A DNA stretch of 63,836 bases from the NCBI GenBank assembly GCA_024405735.1, contig JAKSOF010000013.1:1-63836 (forward strand), in the 5' to 3' direction. Made by a program: the position numbers and the translations under genes. Positions 332-17,840 of the stretch are shown piece after piece; the stretch's first letter is position 1, and each line of letters starts with the position of its first letter. The notes beneath the pieces were generated by a model, which was given only the letters and a program-made list of their open reading frames with translations, was not told where the DNA came from and did no database searches. The stretch is from Victivallaceae bacterium (GTDB lineage: Bacteria > Verrucomicrobiota > Lentisphaeria > Victivallales > Victivallaceae).

Positions 332-370
332 AAAAAAAAACGACAGCACGCATTACGTACTGTCTTTTTT
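332..370 (-). terminator. Rho-independent terminator after peptide 1
   Basis: A 9-bp stem (342-350 with 356-364, one G-U pair on the minus strand) with a 5-nt loop is followed on the minus strand by nine U residues (332-340). A T-run on the other side (365-370) makes it potentially bidirectional. Confidence 0.8.
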
Positions 371-424: not shown

Positions 425-556
425 CTAAATATCATCTCCCGAGGGACAAATATCATCTGCGGGACCGACACAATCGACGTAGCAACTGGCACCCTTGGCA
501 TAGTCCGAATTGAAATCGATCAATTCGGGCTTTTCGTAATCAAATTGAGTCATCAT
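425..556 (-). CDS. Putative RiPP precursor peptide 1 (43 aa)
   Basis: Small gene with a good ribosome site (AGGAGAGG) eight bases before a double ATG, its own promoter and a strong terminator. The N-terminal half carries FDYEKPELIDF, a Y-x-x-P-x-L leader-type motif like the one bound by RRE domains in lasso and some radical-SAM RiPP systems. The C-terminal half is short, acidic and Cys-containing (C25-Y-V-D-C29, then DDIC37PSGDDI). It is a clear paralog of the peptide at 790-921: the leader, the CYxDC box and the DDICPS box are all kept, and spacing between boxes differs by small indels. No maturase, protease or exporter is in the window; genes to the left of base 1 would be the place to look. 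The RiPP assignment is inference; that the gene is real is well supported by the duplication pattern. Confidence 0.75.
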   Translation of the reverse strand: MMTQFDYEKPELIDFNSDYAKGASCYVDCVGPADDICPSGDDI

Positions 557-579
557 TATCCTCTCCTACAATTAGTAAT

Positions 580-607
580 AATATATCACTTATTTCGCAT
601 TATGCAA
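580..607 (-). promoter_or_regulatory. Sigma-70-type promoter of peptide 1
   Basis: Minus-strand TTGCAT (602-607), 16-bp spacer and TATATT (580-585), about 25 bases before the start codon. This gives peptide 1 expression independent of the giant-protein transcript. Confidence 0.75.
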
Positions 608-740
608 GCGGATTTTACATCGATTTTAAAGTTTTTTTGCATTTTTTTGCATTTCGGAAAAAATCTTTTACAAAAAAACATTCTTTTTGCCGATCAAAAA
701 ACGGCAGTATGCAATTTTGCGTACCGCCGTTTCGGACATA

Positions 741-773
741 AAAAAACTGTCGCCGGTCTTAAACCGGCGACAG
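741..773 (-). terminator. Rho-independent terminator after peptide 2
   Basis: A perfect 11-bp stem (747-757 with 763-773, arm CTGTCGCCGGT) with a 5-nt loop is followed on the minus strand by seven U residues. It closes the giant-protein/peptide-2 transcript before peptide 1. Confidence 0.88.
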
Positions 774-789
774 GGAGTCGTTTCAGCGA

Positions 790-921
790 CTAAATAGTAT
801 CTACCGAAGAGGGGCAGATGTCATCGCTTTCACAATCGATGTAGCAACTACCGCCTTCGCCTTTCGCGCAAACCGAATCGAAATCGAGCAATTCGGGCTT
901 TTCATAATCAAACGGAATCAT
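790..921 (-). CDS. Putative RiPP precursor peptide 2 (43 aa)
   Basis: Small gene starting 33 bases after the stop of the 2137-residue protein, with its own AAGGAG site, so very probably on the same mRNA. The peptide has the same leader block as peptide 1 (PFDYEKPELLDF) and the same Cys core (SC26YIDC30, DDIC36PSS), plus an extra Cys18. Leader identity, core boxes and even the bases just after the stop (TAGTCGC) are shared, showing a recent tandem duplication. Acidic residues surround each Cys. It has no signal peptide and is far too short for an enzyme. A precursor of a modified peptide is the simplest reading. An alternative is a small metal-binding or regulatory peptide working with the giant protein. 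Confidence 0.75.
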   Translation of the reverse strand: MIPFDYEKPELLDFDSVCAKGEGGSCYIDCESDDICPSSVDTI

Positions 922-954
922 CTTTTTTCTCCTTACTAATTATGCAAACCAGAA

Positions 955-3900
955 TTACGCCAATTTCGCAACCTTGAGGGCTGTGTCCTCTTTGTAGAAC
1001 TTGTAGCCCGCATCCTCGAACGTCGCAACGTAGGCTTCCTGGTCAGCATCCCACACCGCGATGCCCGCGTTGTCGCCGATCGTCAAGTTGATCTTGGAGT
1101 CGCCGGAGTCGTCGAGCGTAAACCCTGTCCAATTGGTCATCAGACCCTCGTTACCGAAGTTGAAGACCGTCCAACCCTCTTCGCCGATATCCGTAGTGGA
1201 GATCAGACTCAGTTTGTCGCCGGAGAAGTTATTCGCGCCTTTGCCCCAGTCAAGCGTACCGTTGGTGATGCTCCAGTCGCTGACGCTTGAGAGCATACCG
1301 TAAGAGACGATCTTCACGTCGCCGTCCTTGATCGCCACGGCATCGAAACCGGTGATCTTCTTGACGCCTTCGTTCGAGCCGATCTCGCCGCTGAATCCGT
1401 CAAAGGCGAGCGTACGCGTACCCGTGACAAATTTGCCTTCGGCAGAGTCATCGCCGCCGGAGCAGTCGCCGGTGATGTGACCGCCGATCGAGAGATCGTC
1501 GCCGGAACCTTTGAAAGTCAGCGTCGTATTGCCGGAAACCGTGCCTTTGCCGTAGTTGCCCGCGACGAGGTTGCCGCCGATCACAACGGAAGCCGTCGTC
1601 GTATCGATCGTCACATTGATGTCGCCATTCCACTCAAGGGAAGCCGACGTCGCATTGGCTATCTTATTCGCGAAACTGCCGCCGAAAACATATCCGGCGA
1701 CCACGCCGCCATTGATGGTCACGTTTGACGTACCGTAAATCTTGGCGGAACCTTCGCCCTGCAGATAGCAGCCGCCGCCGAGCGCCTTGACCGTGCCGCC
1801 CGCGAGCGTCACATTGGTATTCAAGGTGCCTTCGACCGAAGCGTCCGCGCCGTTGACGAGCGCACCGCCGATGAGCGAATTGCTGAAACTGCCGCCGTTG
1901 ACGATAACGGTCGACGTGCTGTCAATATCCGCAACGTGTGTCGTCAGATAGGAACTTCCGACGATGGCTTTGCCGATGACCTTGTCGGTGTCGATCGTAA
2001 CTTTCGATTCACTGACGACCGCCGAACCTTTGCCGCCGCCGATAAGCGACGAGAAACTGTTCTCCGCGTTGCTGCCGCTGACGGTAAGTTCGCCCTGCGC
2101 GTAGACATTGCCGGAAACGGTCGAGCCGGAGAGAACGACTTTGCCGTTGCCGATGAGCTCATCGGCAACGTTGCCGGTGACGTGGGCGACGGCGTCTTTC
2201 GCCATCATCGATTTCGCATCATCGATGTTCGCGAAGGCGCTGACACCAAAGAGAAGTCCCTTCGCCGAAGCGTCGAAGGTCTTCGTGTCGAAGAGATCGG
2301 AGCCATCCCACTTGGCGTTGATGTAAACGTCATTCTGAGCCGCCGCGACGTAGGTGCCGAGATTCATCCCGTCATCCGAGGTGAAGATCTTGTTCCCGAC
2401 CTCGGAAGTGATCTCGCCGGAGCCGGAGAGCGTCGCGTTGTCTTCGACGACCGTGAAGTAGGCGTTCTGCGCGATGGCGGTGTTGACGATGATCGTGCCG
2501 TTGTTCTCGACGTTGCCGAGGGCCTTGAAGTATTCGTCTTTCCACTCGCCGACGCTCTTTTCGCCGTAAACGAGTTTCACGCCGTCGTTGACGACCACGT
2601 CGAAATTCGAAGCGATCGCGGAAACGATCGAGTCGGCGGCGACCGTGACCGTCGCGGTGCCTTCGATCGTACCGTCATTGACGATACCTTTGCGGAGGAT
2701 CGTGCCGCCCGCCAGCGTGATGGCGGCGTTACCTTTGATGAGCCCCCCGGTAGTGGCAATGTCGGTAACGTAGAGACCGCGTTTCAGCAGACTGTCGGTG
2801 ATGACGACATCAAGATTGCCGCCGATCGTGGCGCCGTTGCGGGTGACCATGTAGCAGGCGCTGGTCGAGCCCGTGGTGCCGAGCGCCGAGTCGGTGATCT
2901 TGACGGAAACGTCGCCCGTGACCGTACCGGCGCTGATCACGACGAAACCGTTGCCGGCTTCCGAGTTTTCACACTCGATATTGAGTTCACCGATGGTCAT
3001 GTCCGCATTGTTCTGGAAGGCGACGGAGTTGGTGACTTTCGTATCGGCGATGTCGATGTTTTCGATGCCGTTCATCCCTTCGAGCGAGCCGAAAGCTCCG
3101 CCGGTGACGAAAAGCTTGCCGCCGTCGGCGGCGCGGCTGAACGCATTGGCGGCGTTGCTGTAAGCATCGGTGCCGTAGGTCGTGGTGTAACCGCCCTCGA
3201 GGACGATCGTCGATTCCGCCGTATAGTTGCTGTTGAGATAAGTATCGGCGGAGGATGCGACCGGACGTTTGTCTTCCGGGACCTCGCTGTACTTGCCGAA
3301 AGCGTCGGTACCGATGGTCAGCACCCGGTCGCCGAACTGGACGTTATCGCCGACGCTCTTTTCGGTCCACAGCACACTGAAATAAATCGGACTCATCTGA
3401 TAGTAGAAGGCGTTGCCGTTTTTCACCAGCTGATAGCCCTTGGACTCATCAGCGCCGACGAGATCGATCCTGTCCTCCGTGACGCCGGGCGACGAAAGGA
3501 TGAAGTACTGCGCCTTGGTGTATTCGCAATCTTCCAAATTGACGGTGTAGGTTCCGGTGTAACCGTTGCTGGCGCCGTTGAAAGTCAGACCGCAATCGTA
3601 TTCTCCGACGTTGATCGTGATCGTGTCGAAATACTTCATCCCAACCGGGGTGTTGGGGGCGCCGTCCATTCCGATGACGGCGGCTCCCGTCACGACGAGA
3701 TCGATGCCCGCGTTTTCACCCTTGGCGACTTTGCCGTAACTCTCGACCCCGCCGATCGTCGAACCGGAAAGCGTGACCGTGACGCGGTGATTATCCGAGA
3801 CGGTCCAGGTAGCATCCTGAGCGCTGGTGCCGAAGTGAAGCGCATCGACATAACTCCCATCGGTGATGGAAATATTGACATCGTCGGTAGAGCCGATATT

Positions 3901-6900
3901 CATGGTCCCTTGGATCTTGCTGACGGTACCGCCCTTAACGGTCACATCGACCGTACCGGTGAGGTTGCCGGCATAAGCGTTGCCGAAATAGACAACGCCG
4001 ACTCTGCCGCCGTTTACGACTTCGATCGTCGAAGACTCGATCTCGAGGTCACCGCTACTGGCGGCATGGCCGGCGCCGATCGAATGAACATAGGCGCCTT
4101 TTTCGACCGTGAAGATGTTGGAACTTCCCTCGGCGCCGATGTTGAGCACCGCGCCGTTGATGCCGGATGTCCCGCCACAAGCAAGGATGGCATTGGTCAC
4201 GATGACGTGTTTGTAGTTCCAGAGCTTGCGGTTGCCGCCGCCGGTGGAAACCGTGTTGGAGCCGCCCGTGATGACCAGAGTCCCCGTCTTGCCGGTCGCA
4301 TCCGCCGCATCGTCGAAGTTGTTGTAGAGCTTGACGGAGGAGTCGGCATCGCCGATCGCCGCGCTGAAAGTACCGCTCGGGCAGATGACCTCTTTCACCG
4401 TGCCTTTGGCGAGGTTCTTCCAATCGTAGTTGAAGAAATTGTCGGGGCTTTGGATCGCCTTTTCATCCTTGTCGGCAACGTCTTTCGCGTCAGCGTAGCT
4501 GAAGAAAGCGTCGGTGCCGATCGTGTAGTCCTTGCCGTTGACCGTCACGGTCTCGCCGTCGGTCTTATCCGCCCAGTCATTGCTGAAGCAGACGAATTTT
4601 TTCTGCAGATAAAGTTCATTATGCGAGCTGCTCCACACGACTTCGTAGTCGCTCGACGGAGTACCGACCCAGACGATATCGTTACTGATAACGTCGCTCG
4701 AATGGATCAGCCGGCGCTTGTCCACGCCCTCGCCGAAAGTGAAGCCCTCGACGTCGATCGTGATCGTCCCGGTATAGTTGTTGAAGCCGGTGGAAACGAA
4801 GAGATTACCGTTTTGCGCCTTGATCGTCACCATGTCAATGATATCAAAGACGGCAGAGGCGACGCTCCAGGTGCCGACCCGGCTCGCCCCGGTCACGACG
4901 AAATTGACCGCCGAATTCGCGCCCTTGTTGAAGGCGCCCGCGCCGTATTTTTTCATCTCGCCGATCGTACCGCCCGCCATCGTGATCGTGATGGTGCTGT
5001 CGTCAAGCAAATTCATCGCGTTGGCACCCGCGCCGGTCGGACCGAAGTCAAGCAACGCGATCCGCGCCTTGTCGCCGACCGTGATGTTGGCGCTCGAGAA
5101 GGAAACTCCGGTGATGCCCCAAGTAAAGGTGCTGACCAAGCTGTTTTCCATATTGACGTTGACGGTGCCTTTGGCGGTGCCGGAGTAACCGACCATAAGC
5201 AGAGTCGAAACAGTGCCGCCGTCCACGTTGATCGTCGCGGTGTCGAAAACGGACGTCCCGCTGGAAACAACGCCGATCGACTGGACGTAGGCGCCGTCAT
5301 TTACGGTAAGCGTATTGCTGTAGGAGGCGTCGCTGACGCCGCCCATCACGTTGAAACCAGCACCGTTGGGAGCTTTTTGGTAAGTCACGCGCGTACCATT
5401 CGTAAAGATCGAATTGGCGTGAACGAAATTTTCACGTCCGCCGCCGGCCGCGGTGTTGTCGTAACTCGTCGCGCCGCCAGCCACGACAAAGGTGCCGGTC
5501 TTGCCGGCGGCGGACGCCGCATCGCTCCAGGAGGAATACGCCTTTACATTGGCATCGCCGATCTTGGTCGCGATCGTGCCGCTCGGGCAAATGACGGTAA
5601 CGTCACTTCCGGCGGCTTTCCCGGACCATCCGGCATTGTAGAAATTGTCGGGGCTCGTAACCACCCAGCCTTCTCTCTCCGCCGCCGCCTTGGCATCTGT
5701 ATAGAGGAAGAAAGCGTTGGTGCCGATGATCGCTTTTTCTCCATCGACGTCAACTTCCGTCCCGTCCGCCAGACCTTCCCACGCGGAGCTGAAATAAGCG
5801 CAGGGTGCGACGACATAAAGATTCTTGTCGTCGGTGCTCTTGACAAGGGTGTACTTGGTTGACGGAGCGCCGTCCGCCACGATCGAAATACTGGTCGCGT
5901 TGATCGCGCCGCCGCCTTTGAGGACGAGCTTGCGCGCCGAGGTCGCCACATAATCCGTCGCGTCGATGGTGATCGCGACATTCGCGCCGATGGAGCCGCC
6001 CGTGGTCAACTGCGCCGTCGCGTCGATGGTGATCGTCTGGACGGCGTCGCCGAGCGTCTTGATGTAGGACTCTTGCGTGCCTTCGACATTGACCGAAAAC
6101 TTATTCTGGACGGCGTTGTAGTAGGTGATATCGCCGCCGACGATGTATTCTTTCTTCACCGTATCATAGAAAACGCCTTTTTTGACGGTGAAAGAGCCGT
6201 CGGGATTCTGCACCTTGGTCGCGCCGGAGATCATCAGATAACGCGTTTCCTGATCGACGTAGCTGGTCTCGCCCACATGCTCTTCGCCGTAGGTGATCCC
6301 ATTACCGCTCGGCGTGCAGTAGGTACCGCCCGTCACGACCGCCGTGCCGCCGGTGACGGCGAGCGCGCCGAGGTAGCCCGGGGCGTAGGTGCCGGTGACT
6401 GTGCCGCCATTGAGCACGAGATCATACCCCAGCGCCGACCAGTAACCCAAATTTGAGTCGGCGCTGCCGACGTTGCCGAGTTTGCCGCCGTCCTCGACGG
6501 TGACGGTGATGGTCTGCAACTTCACGTCGAAAGTTTTGTACCATTCGGCAGCACCGACACTGCGGTTGGACATCTTGAAATTCGACAGACTACTGCCTTC
6601 TCCAGAAATCGTCAGATTGACGTTGCCATTCATGCCGTTGAAACTGGCGCCGCCGCTGACGCCGATATACATCGTAGTGACTTTGCCGCCGTCGCGGAGA
6701 ATGACGTCGAAATCATTCATTGCCACGTTGCTTCCGGCGATCGTCCCGACGCTGCCGCCCGCCACATCGACCACCGCGTGATTGTGCGTGGCAGAGTACG
6801 CCGGCACCACCGTGCCCGCATACGCGCCTTCGCCGACATAAAGATAAGCGAGTTCCGTCGTACTGGCATATCCCGTAACATACGCCGTACTGGTCACCGT

Positions 6901-7368
6901 GCTCCCCGAAAGAAGGAAGGATTCGACCGAGGCGACCGTGCCGGAACCGGGTCCGAAAATGGCGCTGCCGTTATTATAAGAGCCCCCTGTGACATCGGGA
7001 TTTTTGACAAACATGGCATCGGTGACCACGTTGCTGTAGCCGCCGATCACGGGGATATTGGTGGACGCGCCGCCGCCGACACAGGCGAAACTGCCGCTCA
7101 CAACGTAAACGGTGCCGCCGGCATTATTCGCCTTGGTAGCGGCAGCCGTCACCGCCGTTTTCATGTCGCCGAAACCCGCCGAAGCGGCGAGGATCGCATC
7201 TTTGCCGAGCTCTGCGATGACTTCGACGTCGCCGACCGTGACCGTGACCAGGTCGCCTTCCTTGTAATTTTCCCCAGTTTCGGGATTGACCGCGTCCGCA
7301 GTCCATTTATCGCTCACGAAGAATAGATTCGTCGCGGGCACTTCTTTGATGAGCATCTCGTCTGCCAT
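955..7368 (-). CDS. Giant repetitive beta-rich surface-type protein (2137 aa)
   Basis: Very long Gly/Thr/Ser/Val/Asn-rich protein built from short beta-strand repeats (TVxGGTV, GNVxVT types) like the right-handed beta-helix passenger domains of adhesins. A module of the type F-S-x-x-W ... G-x-x-V-T-V-x-G-x-x-x-x-I-G-T-x-A-F recurs near residues 15, 523, 926, 1326 and 1681, in the middle copies followed by SPDNF and ICPSGT boxes. The start has a strong AAGGAG site. It lacks a Sec signal peptide (it begins MADEMLIKEVPATN) and no beta-barrel autotransporter domain is visible. The last ~130 residues resemble the C-terminus of the protein at 11626-13425 and end in a matching YKFYKED-x-ALKVAKLA tail. 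Role and secretion route are unknown; adhesin or sheath protein is inference. Confidence 0.85.
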   Translation of the reverse strand: MADEMLIKEVPATNLFFVSDKWTADAVNPETGENYKEGDLVTVTVGDVEVIAELGKDAILAASAGFGDMKTAVTAAATKANNAGGTVYVVSGSFACVGGGASTNIPVIGGYSNVVTDAMFVKNPDVTGGSYNNGSAIFGPGSGTVASVESFLLSGSTVTSTAYVTGYASTTELAYLYVGEGAYAGTVVPAYSATHNHAVVDVAGGSVGTIAGSNVAMNDFDVILRDGGKVTTMYIGVSGGASFNGMNGNVNLTISGEGSSLSNFKMSNRSVGAAEWYKTFDVKLQTITVTVEDGGKLGNVGSADSNLGYWSALGYDLVLNGGTVTGTYAPGYLGALAVTGGTAVVTGGTYCTPSGNGITYGEEHVGETSYVDQETRYLMISGATKVQNPDGSFTVKKGVFYDTVKKEYIVGGDITYYNAVQNKFSVNVEGTQESYIKTLGDAVQTITIDATAQLTTGGSIGANVAITIDATDYVATSARKLVLKGGGAINATSISIVADGAPSTKYTLVKSTDDKNLYVVAPCAYFSSAWEGLADGTEVDVDGEKAIIGTNAFFLYTDAKAAAEREGWVVTSPDNFYNAGWSGKAAGSDVTVICPSGTIATKIGDANVKAYSSWSDAASAAGKTGTFVVAGGATSYDNTAAGGGRENFVHANSIFTNGTRVTYQKAPNGAGFNVMGGVSDASYSNTLTVNDGAYVQSIGVVSSGTSVFDTATINVDGGTVSTLLMVGYSGTAKGTVNVNMENSLVSTFTWGITGVSFSSANITVGDKARIALLDFGPTGAGANAMNLLDDSTITITMAGGTIGEMKKYGAGAFNKGANSAVNFVVTGASRVGTWSVASAVFDIIDMVTIKAQNGNLFVSTGFNNYTGTITIDVEGFTFGEGVDKRRLIHSSDVISNDIVWVGTPSSDYEVVWSSSHNELYLQKKFVCFSNDWADKTDGETVTVNGKDYTIGTDAFFSYADAKDVADKDEKAIQSPDNFFNYDWKNLAKGTVKEVICPSGTFSAAIGDADSSVKLYNNFDDAADATGKTGTLVITGGSNTVSTGGGNRKLWNYKHVIVTNAILACGGTSGINGAVLNIGAEGSSNIFTVEKGAYVHSIGAGHAASSGDLEIESSTIEVVNGGRVGVVYFGNAYAGNLTGTVDVTVKGGTVSKIQGTMNIGSTDDVNISITDGSYVDALHFGTSAQDATWTVSDNHRVTVTLSGSTIGGVESYGKVAKGENAGIDLVVTGAAVIGMDGAPNTPVGMKYFDTITINVGEYDCGLTFNGASNGYTGTYTVNLEDCEYTKAQYFILSSPGVTEDRIDLVGADESKGYQLVKNGNAFYYQMSPIYFSVLWTEKSVGDNVQFGDRVLTIGTDAFGKYSEVPEDKRPVASSADTYLNSNYTAESTIVLEGGYTTTYGTDAYSNAANAFSRAADGGKLFVTGGAFGSLEGMNGIENIDIADTKVTNSVAFQNNADMTIGELNIECENSEAGNGFVVISAGTVTGDVSVKITDSALGTTGSTSACYMVTRNGATIGGNLDVVITDSLLKRGLYVTDIATTGGLIKGNAAITLAGGTILRKGIVNDGTIEGTATVTVAADSIVSAIASNFDVVVNDGVKLVYGEKSVGEWKDEYFKALGNVENNGTIIVNTAIAQNAYFTVVEDNATLSGSGEITSEVGNKIFTSDDGMNLGTYVAAAQNDVYINAKWDGSDLFDTKTFDASAKGLLFGVSAFANIDDAKSMMAKDAVAHVTGNVADELIGNGKVVLSGSTVSGNVYAQGELTVSGSNAENSFSSLIGGGKGSAVVSESKVTIDTDKVIGKAIVGSSYLTTHVADIDSTSTVIVNGGSFSNSLIGGALVNGADASVEGTLNTNVTLAGGTVKALGGGCYLQGEGSAKIYGTSNVTINGGVVAGYVFGGSFANKIANATSASLEWNGDINVTIDTTTASVVIGGNLVAGNYGKGTVSGNTTLTFKGSGDDLSIGGHITGDCSGGDDSAEGKFVTGTRTLAFDGFSGEIGSNEGVKKITGFDAVAIKDGDVKIVSYGMLSSVSDWSITNGTLDWGKGANNFSGDKLSLISTTDIGEEGWTVFNFGNEGLMTNWTGFTLDDSGDSKINLTIGDNAGIAVWDADQEAYVATFEDAGYKFYKEDTALKVAKLA

Positions 7369-7584: not shown

Positions 7585-7624
7585 GAGAGATGAGAGATGA
7601 GAGATGAGAGATGAGAGATGAGAT
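7585..7624. repeat. 7-bp tandem repeat GAGAGAT (five units)
   Basis: Five perfect GAGAGAT units (7585-7619) and a partial unit. This is the same motif as at 1-54 and also sits at the head of the long hairpin repeat. Confidence 0.9.
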
Positions 7625-7639
7625 TGCACTGCGCATATG

Positions 7640-7880
7640 GTTGTCTCGCGGCGTTGCCGCGAAATTTACGGGGCAATGGGAATCGTGGGATTTGTGGGAG
7701 TTGTGGGAGTTGTGGGATAAGACAAGCCTGCGACGATCCGGAGCAAAGCGACTGTTACAACGCTCACGTCATAGATCGCGGAAAAGAGCGTATGGTCCCA
7801 TATCTCCCACAGCTCTCACTCCTCCCACAAATCCCACTGTATCGCATCCTTTTCGCGCCCGCGGCGCGATGCATCGCTCC
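7640..7880. repeat. Long hairpin-forming repeat, copy B
   Basis: Near-copy of 61-300 in the same orientation. The G-rich arm 7685-7719 and the C-rich arm 7801-7837 form an imperfect stem of about 35 bp around an 81-nt loop. Apparent plus-strand reading frames here are not gene-like. Together with copy A it brackets the giant-protein/peptide cassette. Confidence 0.75.
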
Positions 7881-10688: not shown

Positions 10689-11615
10689 TTACCTTCTTTC
10701 GCGGAAAGGCAACAGCCGGCGGCAGATCTTGAGAATGGATCTTCCGGCGGCGGTCGAAAGATTTTCATCCTCCCCCATGAGGTATTCGCGGAGCAAGGCA
10801 AGGTCGCTTTCGCCGCCGACTTCCCCAAGCGCCAAGAGATAGTAAGCCGCCGCATCGGTCGTCACTTTGCGCTTGGAATCCAACAAAGAGTGACAAATAT
10901 CCGACGGCGTCGTCAACTGATGACGCGCCAAAGCCCAGTGCGCGGCGGCTCCGCAAAGAGTGCCGCGCTGGACATCGGCGATTTTTTTCAGATTTTCCGC
11001 ACGGTCGGGAGGAAGCGTTTCCAACGCCCCCGCTGTGCGGGCGGCAAAAACGACTTCGGAAATCTGATCGGTGATCGACGGGGCAAGAGAATTCATATCC
11101 TCCGCCTGAAAAAGCTGATCCAATTCTCCTGAAGCACCGCATTTCAGCGACGCGTCGATCATCTTTTCCGCTTCCGCGTCGCCGTTGACGGCAAGCAGCC
11201 AGATCGCTTCGTTTTTGCCGTGAAGTCCGGCGTGGATGATCGCCCAGAGGATCTGGCGGTCTTTGACGCTGTAATGCAGTTGCAGACGCGCGGAACTTTC
11301 CAACGCCTGCAAATGCCCCGATGACTGCGGGTCAAGCGCCAGACGGCGGATCTCGTTGACCGCGCCGCCGATGCGTACGCGCAATTCGCGGACGTGACCG
11401 CTCGGAGATTTTTCCAGCAGAGGGAATTCCGTCCGGTTTCTCTCGGGATCCGCTTCCGCCGCCAGGATCCGGCAGTTCCCATCGGAAGAGGAAACCCGCT
11501 TTTCCAACAGATCCGACGCTTCGCGCATCTGGACGATCAACGGATCTTCCGTCCTGCATCCGGCGGCAAGAAGCGCCAGCCCCGCGCTCAAGATGAGAAT
11601 ATAATTCGTTTTCAT
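10689..11615 (-). CDS. Predicted lipoprotein with helical repeats (about 308 aa)
   Basis: The N-terminus MKTNYILILSAGLALLAAGC is a lipoprotein signal with lipobox LAAGC, so it should be lipidated on Cys20 and anchored in a membrane. This start is chosen over a longer reading frame because the signal begins here and the stop of the preceding gene is 10 bases upstream. The mature part is alpha-helical and alternates Leu/Ala-rich helices (for example ADVQRGTLCGAAAHWALARH and TTDAAAYYLLALGEVGG), reminiscent of HEAT-type repeats. No catalytic motif was found. Its position directly after a repetitive surface-type protein suggests a role in that protein's assembly or anchoring; this is inference. 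Confidence 0.8.
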   Translation of the reverse strand: MKTNYILILSAGLALLAAGCRTEDPLIVQMREASDLLEKRVSSSDGNCRILAAEADPERNRTEFPLLEKSPSGHVRELRVRIGGAVNEIRRLALDPQSSGHLQALESSARLQLHYSVKDRQILWAIIHAGLHGKNEAIWLLAVNGDAEAEKMIDASLKCGASGELDQLFQAEDMNSLAPSITDQISEVVFAARTAGALETLPPDRAENLKKIADVQRGTLCGAAAHWALARHQLTTPSDICHSLLDSKRKVTTDAAAYYLLALGEVGGESDLALLREYLMGEDENLSTAAGRSILKICRRLLPFRERR

Positions 11616-11625
11616 TCTTTTTTTC

Positions 11626-13425
11626 CTATGCCAATGCGGCAAGTTTCAGTGAATTGTCTTCACGGTAGATTTTATACTCGCTTGTCGCGAACCATTGATT
11701 CGCCTTGTCCCAGACGGCTTTCACGCCGTCGATCGAAACGGGATAATTGGCATTCAAGCCCAACTTGTCCCAACGGTAGAGCGTGTCGTCGGAACCGGTC
11801 AAAATCGTCCACGGCGATTCGACAGTCGCGCCATTCAACGTGATCTGCAAAGCATCCGCGTAGAAATCATTGCTGCCGGTCATCCATTCCAAGGAGGAGC
11901 CGTACTCAAAATTCCAGTATTTCACCGCAGTGAGATCAAAGCCTTCTCCTTTTCTGCCTTTGCCGCAAAAATCAACATTTGAATTTCCGGCAAAGGTGAT
12001 CCGGTCAAATGCGAAAAGATCCAGCGGCGCAAACGCCCCCGCCCCCTCCGACGAACTGCGGTAAGCGTCAAAAACAAGAGAGCGGGCGCCGTTGATGCGG
12101 TGCTCGTCATCGCTGGCGGATTCGCTGTCGCCGACCACGAAACTGCCGCTGCCGAAAAAAAGATTTTCCGCAATGCCGGAAAAGGTCACCGAGCAACCGC
12201 CCTGGATGTTGCCCTGATAACGGCTGCCGAGCACCAGATGCTTCAGCAGAGCAACCGTATTTTCCGACGTGTCAACCGTCACATAATCGTGGCTGTTGAC
12301 TATCATATCGATCGGAGAGGCCTCATTGACCGACCGGGCAAGTTCCTGTTTGGCGGCGAGATTTCCGCCGTAAACCGATTGGCAAAAAGTACCGCCCGTG
12401 ATCGTCAGGGTATTGGTAACGTGCCGCCCTTCGATCCTGCCCGCCTGATTGTAACTGCCCGCCGCAACTTCTTTCAGAAAAACACCGCCCGAAATTGTCA
12501 GCGTGCAACAACTTCCCGATGCGGCTTTGAGCAACGTCGCCGTGCCGCCGACGATATGTCCGCCGCAGACGACGGAATGAAACGTCCCGTCGGAAATCGA
12601 AAGTTCCGCATTTCCCGTCGCGCTCACCGTGCCGGAAGCAAGGTAAAATCCGCCAAAGGCGAAATCGACGTCGATCGTCCCCTTCCCGCCGATTTCAAGA
12701 AAGGAATTTCCCCCGATTTTGGTGGTCGTGCCGCCGGAAACTTCGACGTATTTCCCGCCGACGAGCAAGCGGAAATCCGCACTTGTTCCTCCGGCGACGT
12801 CAACGCTCAACGCGGAGTCGTCGGAATGAGTTCCGCCCGCCAAAAAAACGGCGGCGCCGCCGAAAATTTTGGCAGGTGTCGTCAATGCACCGATCTCTGT
12901 AGTTGCGCCGGATTTTTCCACCGTGATCTTCCCGGTAAAATCAGGATACGCCGCCACGGCATTGGCAATGGTCAAAAAGTGCGTGGCATCCTCTTCCGTA
13001 TAATCCGGATCCACAAAAAGGTGCGTAACCGTTTCCGGAGCCGACGCCAAAAGCGGCATCGCGTTCAAAACGGGTTGGACGGAGAGCGTTTCAAACGTCA
13101 CACAACTACCCTCGGCGACCTGCCACGGCACACTTTGTTGCGGGGCAACGATCTTTACCGACTTCCCCGCCGGAGTCAGCAGAAACAGCGGATGCGAGAC
13201 AAAGGCGTTTTCCGGGAAATCCAACGCGCTATGCAAGACGATCTCCGCCTCGTTTCCAGCAAAAAGCGCATCGGCAAACGTGATAAAAAGCGGTTGATCG
13301 TTTTCCGGCATTTCTCCGGCATAGAAGAGCGCGCAATTGAACGCATCGCGCAACGAGATAATGCCGTTTCCCTGATCGATACGGTCATTCAGCGTGGTGA
13401 TGACAAAGGTGTTTTCGTTCGCCAT
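11626..13425 (-). CDS. Repetitive beta-rich protein related to the giant protein (599 aa)
   Basis: Begins MANENTFVITTLND and has no Sec signal. Residues ~20-110 contain an NGIISLRDAF segment typical of beta-helix surface proteins. The middle is a run of Gly/Thr-rich beta repeats (SGTVSATGNAELSISDGTF, TLTISGGVF, TLTITGGTF). The C-terminal part (from about residue 470) parallels the giant protein: a W-F/I ... LEW-x-x-GSNDF block, W-T-I, KAVWD, and the final YKIYRED-N-SLKLAALA. Two large proteins in one window with the same tail and no signal peptide suggest a C-terminal export signal. It heads a leftward run with the lipoprotein. Function is unknown. Confidence 0.82.
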   Translation of the reverse strand: MANENTFVITTLNDRIDQGNGIISLRDAFNCALFYAGEMPENDQPLFITFADALFAGNEAEIVLHSALDFPENAFVSHPLFLLTPAGKSVKIVAPQQSVPWQVAEGSCVTFETLSVQPVLNAMPLLASAPETVTHLFVDPDYTEEDATHFLTIANAVAAYPDFTGKITVEKSGATTEIGALTTPAKIFGGAAVFLAGGTHSDDSALSVDVAGGTSADFRLLVGGKYVEVSGGTTTKIGGNSFLEIGGKGTIDVDFAFGGFYLASGTVSATGNAELSISDGTFHSVVCGGHIVGGTATLLKAASGSCCTLTISGGVFLKEVAAGSYNQAGRIEGRHVTNTLTITGGTFCQSVYGGNLAAKQELARSVNEASPIDMIVNSHDYVTVDTSENTVALLKHLVLGSRYQGNIQGGCSVTFSGIAENLFFGSGSFVVGDSESASDDEHRINGARSLVFDAYRSSSEGAGAFAPLDLFAFDRITFAGNSNVDFCGKGRKGEGFDLTAVKYWNFEYGSSLEWMTGSNDFYADALQITLNGATVESPWTILTGSDDTLYRWDKLGLNANYPVSIDGVKAVWDKANQWFATSEYKIYREDNSLKLAALA

Positions 13426-13465
13426 TTTTCATTCTCCGCAGAAAAATTTTTCGTTTGATGTATTA

Positions 13466-13494
13466 AATATAATACATCGTCCCTCAAAATGCAA
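13466..13494 (-). promoter_or_regulatory. Promoter of the 599-aa protein operon
   Basis: Minus-strand TTGCAT (13489-13494), 17-bp spacer and TATATT (13466-13471), 40 bases before the ATG. Confidence 0.78.
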
Positions 13495-13523
13495 TTTTTT
13501 TTCGAAGAAACTGACGAAAATCT

Positions 13524-14156
13524 TTACTTGCGGAACTTATCCATCACGGGAAGCAGCATCCCGCCGAGGGAATTGCCGAGCGTAAGCCACAATGTGACGA
13601 GCAACGTTTTGCCGCACCAGACATTCGCCGCGGAAAAGTAGAACATATCCGCGATGCAGTGTTCAAAACCGCTCAAAATAAAGATCGTCACGCAGAGAAA
13701 AACGGTAAAAAAGCGGAAGATCGGCGACAAATCCTCCCGGCGGTAAGTTTCGACGGCGACGTACATCAAAATGCCGCAGAAAAACGCGAGGATCAGCAAA
13801 CTCGGCAGACCGTCATTCAACTTTTCCGCACACATCGCGCCGACTCTCGCATCGAGCCGCGCGAAAACCCGGCTGTGGCGCACCAGCGTGCCGACGAGCC
13901 ACGTGCCGCAAAAATTACCGCACCAGATCAGCAAAAGAGTCCGGCAATAGGAAAAAGTTTTCCTGCCCTGATTGGCGAGATAACCGATCGCCCCCGTGTA
14001 GAGTTTAAAGCCGTAGCAGACGATCGTCATCAGTCCGAAACCGAAAAGTACCGCCCCCGCCACCGGATTTTTGACGGAAAGACAAACCGTTCCCGCAATG
14101 CCGATGAAGATCCCGGCAAGCAAGGCATTGACCAGTGTCCGAAAAGATTCCCGCAT
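13524..14156 (-). CDS. Formate/nitrite transporter family channel (210 aa)
   Basis: Integral membrane protein with about six hydrophobic helices. The FNT hallmark I-L-S-G-F-E-H-C-I-A-D-M-F-Y-F (residues ~160-175; family pattern G-x-E-H-x-x-A-N/D-M) is present, as is VCYGFKLYTGAIGYL near 45-60. FNT channels form pentamers that conduct formate, nitrite, hydrosulfide or similar small acids. At 210 residues it is shorter than usual (~260-280), because the chosen ATG at 14156 is the first that gives a clean membrane N-terminus and starts 2 bases after the deacetylase stop. It is the last gene of the glycan operon, which is unexpected. The substrate cannot be assigned. Confidence 0.8.
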   Translation of the reverse strand: MRESFRTLVNALLAGIFIGIAGTVCLSVKNPVAGAVLFGFGLMTIVCYGFKLYTGAIGYLANQGRKTFSYCRTLLLIWCGNFCGTWLVGTLVRHSRVFARLDARVGAMCAEKLNDGLPSLLILAFFCGILMYVAVETYRREDLSPIFRFFTVFLCVTIFILSGFEHCIADMFYFSAANVWCGKTLLVTLWLTLGNSLGGMLLPVMDKFRK

Positions 14157-14158
14157 CG

Positions 14159-14953
14159 TTAAAAATCCTCCAACGTTTCCTGAAAAGTCACAAAATCCCC
14201 GAGATCGCGCAACGAGGCGATCAATTTTTCCAGCCGCGCGGCATACGCCGCTCCCGCATGACGGGTGATGTACGGCGGGATATGCCACTTGGGATCGGCG
14301 GCGGCTTCGCTGTATTCCCAGGGATGCGTGTACAAATTGAAATAACGCGTCTTTTTCACGGCGAAACGAGCCAACGCGCGGTAGACGAAAAACGGGAAAT
14401 TCTTGAAGCTCAACCAGAAAAGCGGGAGCCGCAGAAACGGCACCGCCGACACCGGATATTGTTTCAGACCGCCTTCGTCCGCAAACGGCAGAAGGCTTGC
14501 GGACAAATGATTGTAGCGACCGGGGAGCCAGACGGGATTCAGCGAGGATTCGTAGCGGTACCCCGCATTGACGATGTCGCTTTTGGCAACGGGGGCAAGC
14601 CGCGCCATCCGGAAACCGACTAATTTTCCGCCGGATAATTTTTCCAGAATTTCCTTGGATTCCGCCAGATGCGACGCTTCAAAAAAGGAATGGTTCAAGC
14701 CGTGCGAAGCGATCTCGTGCCCGGAGCGCGCCATTCTTGCGACCAATTCCGGCGCGCGTTCAGCAAAATACGCGGTGATGAAAAACGTCGCTTTGACTCC
14801 GGCGCGGTCGAGCACGTCGAGGATCTTTTTTGTGCCGTCCGCCGACACCGCCATCCGGTCGGCTTCGGAAACGGCGACGCCGTATTCCTCCGGCAGATCG
14901 AATTCCTCGATGTCAAAGGAAAGCAATAATTTCGCCCGTTTGGATGGATTCAT
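14159..14953 (-). CDS. Polysaccharide deacetylase family protein (264 aa)
   Basis: NodB-type TIM-barrel deacetylase. Motif 1 appears as LLSFDIEEFD (residues ~9-18), motif 2 as SHGLNHSFF (~82-90) with the two metal-binding His, and a late LYTHPWEY (~216-223) supplies another His. There is no signal peptide, so it acts at the cytosolic face. The start overlaps the GT2 stop by four bases (ATGA). Members next to GtrA and GT2 genes often modify lipid-linked sugars, which fits this operon. The exact sugar is unknown. Confidence 0.85.
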   Translation of the reverse strand: MNPSKRAKLLLSFDIEEFDLPEEYGVAVSEADRMAVSADGTKKILDVLDRAGVKATFFITAYFAERAPELVARMARSGHEIASHGLNHSFFEASHLAESKEILEKLSGGKLVGFRMARLAPVAKSDIVNAGYRYESSLNPVWLPGRYNHLSASLLPFADEGGLKQYPVSAVPFLRLPLFWLSFKNFPFFVYRALARFAVKKTRYFNLYTHPWEYSEAAADPKWHIPPYITRHAGAAYAARLEKLIASLRDLGDFVTFQETLEDF

Positions 14954-15696
14954 TTTTTCCTCATCTTTCCGCAGATCCTTGCCTGAAACAAAATCCGGAC
15001 GAAATGACGCAATTCCCGACAGATCACTTTGAAGCCCATTCGCGAAAAGTGCAACCCCTGCCGCAAATGCAGATCGATCGTATCGATTTTCAATTTTGCA
15101 TTGCTGCCGAGCAAAATGAATTCCGTATCAAAAAGAAAAGAATCCGTTTCTGTCGCCAGAAAAGCGGTTTTTCCATTGGAATTAAATCCTTTCAACCCCG
15201 CCTGCGTATCGAGGAAACGATCCGGCAGACCGAGCAACAACCGGTTCAGCGCGCGCACCCCGGACGAAATGATCTTGCGCGACCAGCCGAGCGCGGCGCC
15301 GTATTCCCTGCCGCGCACGCCCATCACGATGTCGGCGCCCTGCTCCAGTTTTCCGGCGGCATCCGCCACGCTTTGCCAGCCGAAGGGAAAATCCCCGTCG
15401 GTATAAACTTGGAAATCGCCTTGAGTGCGACCGATCCCGTAACGCAGGCAATAGCCTTTGCCGTGATTGGGAGAGTAGGAAAGAAATTCAAAATTTCCTC
15501 CCGCCGCCTGACGGATCTTGTCGAGACTTTCCTCCGAAAAAAACGACAGATCGGAACCGTCGTTGACGAGATAAAGGCGCAACTGCCAGTTTTTCTGCGC
15601 GAACTCAGTCTGCAACGCCGACACGGCATCAACGATATGTTTTTCCCATCCGGCATGAGGTTTGTAAAGCGGCAAAACAAGATCAATCAGGCGCAT
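14950..15696 (-). CDS. Family 2 glycosyltransferase, polyprenyl-phosphate sugar type (248 aa)
   Basis: GT-A fold: MRLIDLVLPLYKP start, VNDGSD (~47-52, nucleotide binding), GKGYCLRYG (~83-91), and the DxD-like YTDGDFPF (~103-110). RDL-like and membrane-tail features of larger DPM1 homologs are weak. The downstream QAGLKGFN segment is typical of polyprenyl-phosphate glycosyltransferases. The start is placed at the internal ATG 15696 because the fold begins there; it overlaps the gtrA end by 14 bases. With GtrA (flippase-like) and GT39, it forms the usual trio that makes and uses a lipid-linked sugar. Confidence 0.87.
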   Translation of the reverse strand: MRLIDLVLPLYKPHAGWEKHIVDAVSALQTEFAQKNWQLRLYLVNDGSDLSFFSEESLDKIRQAAGGNFEFLSYSPNHGKGYCLRYGIGRTQGDFQVYTDGDFPFGWQSVADAAGKLEQGADIVMGVRGREYGAALGWSRKIISSGVRALNRLLLGLPDRFLDTQAGLKGFNSNGKTAFLATETDSFLFDTEFILLGSNAKLKIDTIDLHLRQGLHFSRMGFKVICRELRHFVRILFQARICGKMRKK

Positions 15697-16174
15697 TGGC
15701 GGAAACCCTTTTTTGAGCAAAAATCCAGAATTTACTGATGACGTAATTGAAAACCGTCACAAAAAATTCATCGACAAGTTTCATCAGATACCCGTGAAGC
15801 GCCGCATAGTGCGGATCCCACATCTGCGCCCACGCGGTGTAAGCAAGAAAATCCACCGTCACCCAGATGAAGGCGAAATCAAAGGCGAGCGTTGCCGCAC
15901 GGCAACCGAAAAAGAGCAAAAATTCCCGCCAGAAAACCCCCGGCGCCATCGAGCGGCTTTTAAATACCGCCAATTTGTTGGCGAAAAAGGCAAAAAGCAC
16001 CGCGACGACCCACGACACCACCGTCGCGAGCCTCCCCGCACAATGAGCAAGACTCCCCTTCCCCAAAAGATAGAAAAGGAAAAAATAAACCGCCATACTC
16101 AAAGCCGTCGTCAGCACGCCGACAATGAGATAACGGATGATCTCCTGATATTTTTTCAAAAACGACAGCATCAT
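15683..16174 (-). CDS. GtrA-like membrane protein (163 aa)
   Basis: Small protein with four transmembrane helices. The GtrA signature is visible: R-Y-L-I-V-G-V-L-T-T near the N-terminus, VVAVLFAFFANKLAVFKS after helix 2, and the final VTVFNYVISKFWIFA. GtrA proteins are thought to flip undecaprenyl-phosphate-linked sugars across the inner membrane. A longer reading frame begins upstream, but the ATG pair at 16169-16174 has a GTGGAAAC site and gives the normal length. It is first in the operon gtrA-GT2-deacetylase-FNT. Confidence 0.85.
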   Translation of the reverse strand: MMLSFLKKYQEIIRYLIVGVLTTALSMAVYFFLFYLLGKGSLAHCAGRLATVVSWVVAVLFAFFANKLAVFKSRSMAPGVFWREFLLFFGCRAATLAFDFAFIWVTVDFLAYTAWAQMWDPHYAALHGYLMKLVDEFFVTVFNYVISKFWIFAQKRVSANAPD

Positions 16175-16205
16175 TTCTGTTTCCACAAAATCCCTTATCA
16201 TATCT

Positions 16206-16234
16206 AATATACTTCCGCATTTGCCGCTTTTCCA
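16206..16234 (-). promoter_or_regulatory. Possible promoter of the gtrA operon
   Basis: Minus-strand TGGAAA (16229-16234), 17-bp spacer and TATATT (16206-16211). The -35 box is imperfect. Confidence 0.45.
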
Positions 16235-16287
16235 CCATCGGAAGAAAAAAGGCGAAAGTTTTCTTGATCGCACATACGTTTTTCAAC

Positions 16288-16316
16288 TTGTATTCTCCCA
16301 TGCGGCAACGTATATT
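16288..16316 (+). promoter_or_regulatory. Promoter of the first GT39 gene
   Basis: TTGTAT (16288-16293), 17-bp spacer and TATATT (16311-16316), 43 bases before the chosen ATG. Confidence 0.7.
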
Positions 16317-16358
16317 GTATCACACGAGTATTCAAGAAAAATGCCACCGAGGATTTTT

Positions 16359-17840
16359 ATGAAAAGCATACAGAAATTTTTCGCACCGAAACGTTTTTTG
16401 GTCTTTTTTCTGATTTTCAACACCGTGATCGCAACGCTGATTCCGACTTTACTTTACCGCGTCCTGCCGCTGGACACCATTGAAGCGGTCATCTGGGGAC
16501 AGCGTTTTACGATGGGCAACTACAAACATCCGCCGCTTTCCGGATGGATCGCCCATCATTTTTCGGCGTTTTTCGGGCACGCCGATTTCGCGATGTATTT
16601 TTTGAGCCAGATCTGCGTCGCCGTCAGCTACTACTTTATTTACAAGCTCGCCAGAGAATTTTTCAGCGAACGCAAATCCGTCCTCGCTTCCATCGTACTC
16701 GGGATCACATTTTTCTATTCGTTTGATTCCGCAAAATTCAACGTCAACATTCTGCATCTCGCGCTGTGGCCGGTAACGACCTATTGCTTCATCCGGACGA
16801 TCAAAGAAAATCTGCTCCGTCAATGGATCCTGCTCGGCGTACTGGCGGCGCTCTGCCTTTGGAGCAAACTTTCCGGGGGAATTTTATTGCTGATGCTGAC
16901 CATTTGGATGTTCGCCGACCGGCAGGCGCGAAGCCGTTTTTCCGGCGCGGGCCCCTATGTCACGGCAATTCTCTCTTTTGCGCTTTTCGTCCCTTATCTC
17001 ATCTGGCTTTTCCGGACGGACTTCCTGCCGCTGACTTACGCCTCCGAACGGGCTCACGCCGAATCAAGTCCGTTTTACTTCCCGGTCGAGATATTTTTTG
17101 GGCTTCTCGCGCCTCTTGCGGCGCCGCTTGCGGCAATTTTAGTTGCGGGAGGCAAAGAAGCCTTTTTTCGTTTTTTCCGCCAAAAATGGCAGATCAACCA
17201 CCGCGCGGCTTTCCTCTTTGCCGGATTTTTTCTGTTTTTCCCGATCCTTTTTTTCACGGGATTGAGCTTTTTCGTACCACGGATCGACTTGATGTGGGGG
17301 TATCCGATCTATTTTGCGTCGGGGATTTTATTCCTTTCTTTTTACGAAGATGAATTCTGGACGGAAAAACGCTTCACGCATCTTGCGCTGATCGTCATCG
17401 CCGTCATATTGGCATTTCAAATAGGGGATGTCATTTACTTTTGCGTCAAGACCCGGCAGTCGGGACACTTCCCGGCGCAGGAATGCGCTGACAAGGCGGT
17501 CGTTTATTATCAGCAAAAGACGGGAAATGCCATCTCTACCGTTTGCGGCAATATGTGGTTCGCCTGCATCATTTCGCACTATCAGAAATCCCGTCCGCTC
17601 GTCTGCATTCAGGAAGATCCGCTCGACATTATGCGTTACCGTCCCAAAATCGAAAAAGAAGGGGCGATGTTCGTCGCCGCAAATCAGCAGGAAATCCAAG
17701 ACATCGCCCGGCAAATGGAAATTGAAATCACCGACATCACGCCGGTATATTTCCGCTATCAGGCACCGCACGGAAAAGTTTCCGAAAAACGGCTCTTTTT
17801 CGCCATTCTCCGGCCAAGACAGGCGGCGGTGAAAGAGTAA
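16359..17840 (+). CDS. GT39/ArnT-like glycosyltransferase (493 aa)
   Basis: Polytopic membrane protein of the PMT/ArnT superfamily, which moves a sugar from a polyprenyl phosphate to lipid A, lipid or protein on the outer face of the inner membrane. The N-terminal periplasmic loop carries LDTIEAVIWGQRF and KHPPLSGW; the acidic D-T-I-E is at the place of the catalytic acid. About ten hydrophobic helices follow and a soluble domain fills the last ~120 residues. The start at 16359 has GAGGA six bases upstream; a longer frame is ignored. It is divergent from gtrA-GT2 and probably uses their lipid-linked sugar. A paralog lies at 44169-45653. Confidence 0.86.
   Translation: MKSIQKFFAPKRFLVFFLIFNTVIATLIPTLLYRVLPLDTIEAVIWGQRFTMGNYKHPPLSGWIAHHFSAFFGHADFAMYFLSQICVAVSYYFIYKLAREFFSERKSVLASIVLGITFFYSFDSAKFNVNILHLALWPVTTYCFIRTIKENLLRQWILLGVLAALCLWSKLSGGILLLMLTIWMFADRQARSRFSGAGPYVTAILSFALFVPYLIWLFRTDFLPLTYASERAHAESSPFYFPVEIFFGLLAPLAAPLAAILVAGGKEAFFRFFRQKWQINHRAAFLFAGFFLFFPILFFTGLSFFVPRIDLMWGYPIYFASGILFLSFYEDEFWTEKRFTHLALIVIAVILAFQIGDVIYFCVKTRQSGHFPAQECADKAVVYYQQKTGNAISTVCGNMWFACIISHYQKSRPLVCIQEDPLDIMRYRPKIEKEGAMFVAANQQEIQDIARQMEIEITDITPVYFRYQAPHGKVSEKRLFFAILRPRQAAVKE

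Follow-up and report, generated by a model that had tools for sequence, protein, structure and literature searches.

At the left end of the window, which is the whole stretch of 63,836 nucleotides analysed here and constitutes the entire contig C5 of the 1.89-Mb, 26-contig genome (G000) of a Victivallaceae bacterium, with base 1 being the end of the assembly, two small genes encode the 43-residue peptides A (MMTQFDYEKPELIDFNSDYAKGASCYVDCVGPADDICPSGDDI) and B (MIPFDYEKPELLDFDSVCAKGEGGSCYIDCESDDICPSSVDTI) (Table 1). The leader YEKPEL-x-DF and the core pattern SC-Y-[VI]-D-C...D-D-I-C-P-S are common to both. A first-pass annotation made from the sequence had described two paralogous small genes with this leader and a cysteine core, equipped with good ribosome sites and their own terminators and located beside a giant repetitive protein. 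In fact, both open reading frames are present as described, a Shine-Dalgarno motif can be read for each, a terminator-like hairpin follows each (three such hairpins were found versus 0.8 expected) and the giant neighbour is there. Neither peptide A nor peptide B matched a Pfam family. The unit composed of the giant gene, peptide B and peptide A is bracketed on both sides by direct repeats (15-293 and 7585-7864) that are 89-94% identical and have GAGAGAT minisatellite ends, with the contig break inside one of the repeats.

Table 1. Features of the peptide locus in the window and of the cassette on contig C23 (cassette positions are local to L137, which corresponds to C23:97000-116900)
Feature	Position	Strand	Basis or remark
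Peptide A, 43 aa; leader YEKPELIDF, A-K-G site, core SCYVDC...DDICPS	425..556	-	ORF and translation
Peptide B, 43 aa; leader YEKPELLDF, A-K-G site, core SCYIDC...DDICPS	790..921	-	ORF and translation
Shine-Dalgarno AGGAG of peptide A	563..567	-	6 nt 5' of first ATG, read from sequence
Shine-Dalgarno AAGGAG of peptide B	929..934	-	7 nt 5' of ATG, read from sequence
Terminator-like hairpin 3' of peptide B	747..773	-	12 pairs, then T7
Terminator-like hairpin 3' of peptide A	342..364	-	10 pairs, then T run
Giant repetitive protein, 2137 aa; C-terminal domain ending YKFYKEDTALKVAKLA	955..7368	-	Stop 33 nt upstream of peptide B start
Second protein, 599 aa; same C-terminal domain as the giant (YKIYREDNSLKLAALA)	11626..13425	-	ORF and C-terminal comparison
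ABC transporter, HlyB-type	L137 7159-9738		Cassette
HlyD	L137 9740-11197		Cassette
PqqD	L137 11198-11455		Cassette
S26-type Ser-His peptidase	L137 about 11484-11996		Cassette
Radical SAM/SPASM	L137 11993-13042		Cassette
HPrK (HPr-kinase homologue)	L137 13039-13902		Cassette

The reading frames of the peptides are under purifying selection. Between A and B, pS amounts to 0.64 and pN to 0.17 (dN/dS 0.13, Nei-Gojobori), and five further pairs, formed by copies from genus mates with A or B or among themselves, gave dN/dS values of 0.13-0.23 in four cases and 0.45 in one. The excess of synonymous changes over replacements together with homologues in four other genomes of the genus sets these genes apart from chance open reading frames. 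That the genes are such chance frames or decayed remnants, as their shortness and the position of many copies at contig ends might suggest, is a practically negligible prospect against dN/dS values of 0.13-0.45, ribosome sites, terminators and homologues in several genera. A substitution pattern free of selection on the reading frame, which the first-pass annotation had named as an argument against precursor genes, was thus not what was found.

Copies of the peptide are distributed unevenly in the genus, with four in G000, eight in G026, six in G008, one in G018 and about 13 in G009, where the copies are devoid of cysteine (MKFDYEHPELAEVDFGKFASGASKAPDYDDDTDDLGL). A class-wide profile search recovered the leader in other genera with the peptide situated between a giant gene and the cassette, and the arrangement of a giant gene, a YxxP peptide and then HPrK-PqqD-S26 and further genes was encountered in ten or more genera of the class. 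In an alignment of 30 peptides, the tyrosine and proline of YxxP are invariant and a glycine about a dozen residues further on is nearly so. A hydrophobic-x-[GA] site after the leader occurs in 29 of 31 peptides, versus a mean of 15.2 and a maximum of 26 in 2000 shuffles. This pattern resembles the specificity of signal peptidases, and the motif, as judged from sequence, would suit an S26 enzyme as its cleavage site. Long peptides with cysteine repeats of the type TxxCTAGxxA, found with two radical SAMs and PqqD in G183 and G041 (L151, L209, L217), apparently represent a separate family of cysteine-rich precursors.

The giant neighbour noted in the first-pass annotation belongs to a wider pattern, in which a gene of this kind precedes the peptide throughout the class. 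Within the genus, the first peptide copy usually starts 8-33 nt downstream of the stop codon of a giant repeat gene wherever upstream sequence exists, and the giants of G000 and G026 have a common C-terminal domain that ends in forms of YKFYKEDNALKVAKLA. Class-wide, a giant or repeat protein ends 15-312 nt upstream of the peptide in 16 of 20 loci, counted where cassette genes adjoin the peptide or the arrangement is the same, and covering at least ten genera; its C-terminus is often, for example, KLA. Counting against a strict pairing, four copies have no visible giant gene upstream (G008 C129, C131 and C109; G018 C44) and no peptide gene was detected in the window after the 599-aa protein, whose gene overlaps at its 3' end the start of a lipoprotein-like open reading frame (10689-11642). 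The giant repeat proteins have no apparent signal peptide, and neither the 2137-aa nor the 599-aa window protein matched a Pfam family. Furthermore, in three loci a larger repeat protein begins with the YxxP-Cys module, on the minus strand in each: 1138 aa in G000 C2 (L052:6400-9816), with a weak MBG-type match, 512 aa in G026 C34 (L058:7671-9209), with FG-GAP matches, and at least 299 aa in G008 C111 (L062:2-898). In L052 and L062, the gene next upstream of the fused-module gene encodes a similar membrane protein.

Candidate maturation and export genes lie on another contig, C23, where a cassette encodes a HlyB-type ABC transporter, HlyD, PqqD, an S26-type peptidase, a radical SAM/SPASM protein and an HPr-kinase homologue. 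The PqqD protein, encoded beside the radical SAM, S26, HlyD and ABC genes, matches PF05402 (E=1.4e-16) and has ScmD as its best NCBIfam family (1.2e-17, 64 bits versus a curated cut-off of 100), while the best families are ScmE for the radical SAM protein (8.1e-51, 173 bits versus 400, with a wide lead over others) and ScmC for the HPrK-like protein (2.6e-15, 56.5 bits versus 125). Peptide A, the sole member of the peptide family to give a match, matches ScmA and no other NCBIfam family (E=0.014, 15.6 bits versus 35). Peptide, PqqD, radical SAM and kinase therefore each point to the same predicted RiPP system, SynChlorMet (Scm; NCBIfam TIGR04248-TIGR04252), although every one of these scores lies under the curated cut-off, which speaks against the assignment. 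The ABC protein is most similar to the HlyB subfamily (7.4e-190, 632.7 bits; cut-off 725.55) and HlyD scores 270.7 bits, over its cut-off of 208.65; a HlyB-like transporter with a HlyD-like adaptor qualifies the pair as type I secretion. As is characteristic of RRE-dependent RiPP systems, a PqqD-like RRE is encoded with modifying enzymes and an exporter, and a short leader/core precursor is linked to the enzymes in relatives and unlinked in the window genome. As the cassette is unlinked to the peptides in the window genome and equally in G026, G008 and G018, their pairing rests on the gene order in relatives and on co-occurrence.

Concerning the removal of the leader, the ABC protein aligns with the C39-like domain of HlyB and has, by eye, a threonine at the place of the catalytic cysteine. 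The C39 peptidase was considered as leader protease and rejected, as the domain looks catalytically dead with its peptidase cysteine replaced, and the transporter differs in the same respect, its catalytic Cys/His, from C39 bacteriocin exporters with an active peptidase. The S26 proteins, on the other hand, retain serine and histidine, invariant in six homologues, which makes them the likely leader peptidase. Among PDB structures, the thioether maturase SkfB is closest to the radical SAM protein (E 1.5e-28); a search with the radical SAM alignment returned four named relatives, which are Victivallaceae/Lentisphaeria metagenome-assembled genomes, two of them from horse faeces.

A second RiPP-like locus is present on the same contig in L018 (C23:1-20000; 13357-17600, minus strand), with a precursor-like peptide (MAYKKPQMVAKSSAKKSYVAGCPSQ...) and tandem radical SAM genes whose N-terminal regions are PqqD-like; precursors of this type occur in G026, G009 and G032 with nearly identical leaders and varying cores. 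The tandem pair (C23:13.4-16.2 kb) was the first candidate for the maturase of peptides A and B, as it is also ScmE/ScmF-like and occurs in the window genome, G026 and G009, and was dropped since it is distributed differently from the peptides. No adjacent pair was found in G008 and G018 at the threshold used, the pair is present in G001, G024 and G032, genomes without such a peptide, and it has its own precursor-like genes (MAYKKPQ...YVAGCP), which makes it very unlikely that peptides A and B are its substrates.

The first-pass annotation had proposed that homologues be sought near a maturase or exporter, and these were found beside PqqD (RRE), an HPrK-like kinase, S26, ABC and HlyD genes, with a radical SAM gene in some loci. 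In G052 and G139, the giant gene is followed in turn by the peptide, an HPrK-like gene, PqqD, S26 fused to NTP_transf_5, an ABC gene with a C39-like domain, and HlyD. The cysteine core, present in A and B as first described, is not universal in the family and follows the presence of the radical SAM enzyme. Within the genus, close radical SAM orthologues (46-88% identity to that of G000) are restricted to G000, G026, G008 and G018, the four genomes with cysteine-bearing peptides, and adjoin PqqD, S26, HlyD, ABC and HPrK in each. No close radical SAM was found in G009, with its Cys-less peptides, where an HPrK homologue is present with neither PqqD nor S26 beside it, a point against the proposed maturation scheme. 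At the locus level across the class, cysteine occurs in nine of nine radical SAM-linked peptides, a set that includes the two-radical-SAM loci, whose long Cys-repeat peptides possibly form a subfamily of their own, versus three of 15 without radical SAM, namely peptides beside a cassette devoid of this enzyme and the G009 type (Fisher p=3e-4, ignoring kinship). The cysteine core is thus the likely target of the radical SAM enzyme, with the three cysteine-bearing exceptions counting against the link. In G162 (L125:3376-4354, minus strand), a radical SAM gene split in two frames precedes a giant gene with its Cys-bearing peptide.

The same covariation bears on the idea that the peptides stay unmodified, YxxP being a sorting tag read by PqqD and the peptides small chaperone- or plug-like partners that help the giants through type I secretion. 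Such a role would agree with the position of the peptide gene directly 3' of the giant gene across genera, with the same module as N-terminus of large repeat proteins and with the existence of Cys-less versions in up to 13 copies in one genome. It seems rather unlikely, however, as cysteine presence follows the radical SAM enzyme and as homologues of radical SAM, HPrK and nucleotidyltransferase are kept beside the peptide.

The preferred reading, precursor peptides that are modified, finds its nearest counterpart in SynChlorMet. To our knowledge, SynChlorMet-type enzymes have not been characterised, and among the papers searched none names SynChlorMet and none brings radical SAM and a precursor peptide together with type I secretion and RTX. 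SynChlorMet possesses ScmE and ScmF, whereas the cassettes of G000, G026, G008 and G018 have a single ScmE-like radical SAM. Also unlike SynChlorMet, an exporter of the HlyB/HlyD type and an S26 peptidase belong to the cassette, many precursors are dispersed beside giant repeat genes, the module is also fused to large proteins and versions without radical SAM exist. The first-pass annotation had likened the YxxP leader to lasso and some radical SAM systems; it is the predicted SynChlorMet cassette, and not lasso peptides, that comes closest. Lasso systems with HPr-kinase and nucleotidyltransferase tailoring (paeninodin, pseudomycoidin; PMC8498205) likewise have a stand-alone RRE and an HPr-kinase homologue, with NTP_transf_5 in some relatives here, but ScmD is a better match for the present PqqD than lasso B1 is. 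Neither a lasso cyclase (asparagine-synthetase-like) nor a transglutaminase-like B2 was found in L137 from the ABC gene to the HPrK gene or in the annotated cassette genes of L124 and L127. Radical SAM thioether peptides (sactipeptides and ranthipeptides; SkfB, CteB, AlbA) resemble the system in the SPASM-type enzyme nearest to SkfB and in the cysteine core, and differ from it in the separate PqqD, the core SCYxDC...ICP without NCBIfam match and the giant-protein pairing. Giant adhesins exported by type I secretion (HlyB/HlyD; SiiE and LapA types) have in common with it the HlyB-like ABC protein with a C39-like domain, HlyD and the giant repeat proteins; unlike in those systems, RiPP-type modifying enzymes and a YxxP peptide are part of the gene set, and the two repeat proteins of the window gave no Pfam match.

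We therefore consider it likely, and with fair confidence, that the two genes encode precursors of a SynChlorMet-related RiPP system acting in trans, guided by PqqD, modified at cysteine, exported and tied to giant surface proteins; computation thus backs the precursor assignment, which the first-pass annotation had itself offered as inference. The gene family, its selection, the cassette in the same genome, the gene order of relatives, the covariation of radical SAM and cysteine and the catalytic residues of S26 were computed, and from them we infer PqqD binding, the chemistry, the cleavage site, export and what the mature peptide does. The stand-alone PqqD/RRE protein would bind the leader Y-x-x-P-x-[LIM]-x-[DE]-F and hand the core to the ScmE-like radical SAM/SPASM enzyme for modification of the cysteines of SCYxDC...ICP, thioether cross-links being the most likely outcome. 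A core hydroxyl may be phosphorylated by the HPr-kinase-like protein; in known lasso systems, precursors are phosphorylated by homologues of HPr kinase (PMC8498205), an analogy that could serve as a lead for the role of the kinase. The S26-type Ser-His peptidase would then cut at the conserved hydrophobic-x-G/A site, and the HlyB/HlyD-type pair would export the peptide, the giant repeat protein encoded just upstream, or both.

The peptide probably acts at the surface with giant secreted proteins rather than as a free antibiotic, as the recurrent giant pairing and the fusion to large repeat proteins favour such a role. Release into the gut as a bacteriocin-type RiPP, with the giant gene just an upstream member of the operon, would fit the size, the leader/core layout, a cysteine core like that of radical SAM-modified bacteriocins and SkfB of the sporulation killing factor as the closest solved maturase; it is nevertheless improbable, as no immunity gene was seen, the pairing of giant and peptide recurs across genera, the module is fused to surface-type proteins and many near-identical copies reside in G009. 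Carrying the surface role further, it can tentatively be envisaged that the line of PqqD reader, radical SAM, kinase and Ser-His peptidase is a tagging and modification system for giant type I-secreted surface proteins, which would process the companion peptides whose genes come right after each giant gene as well as, where the module is fused, the N-termini of the large proteins.

Precursors of this kind are easily missed because they are short, dispersed and located at assembly breaks beside repetitive genes. With the peptides described here, the predicted SynChlorMet-type enzymes gain clear candidate substrates, and the Cys-less peptides where the radical SAM enzyme is missing provide a built-in control that makes the substrate question directly testable. 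This would bring together RiPP maturation and giant secreted surface proteins, two subjects that are seldom connected.
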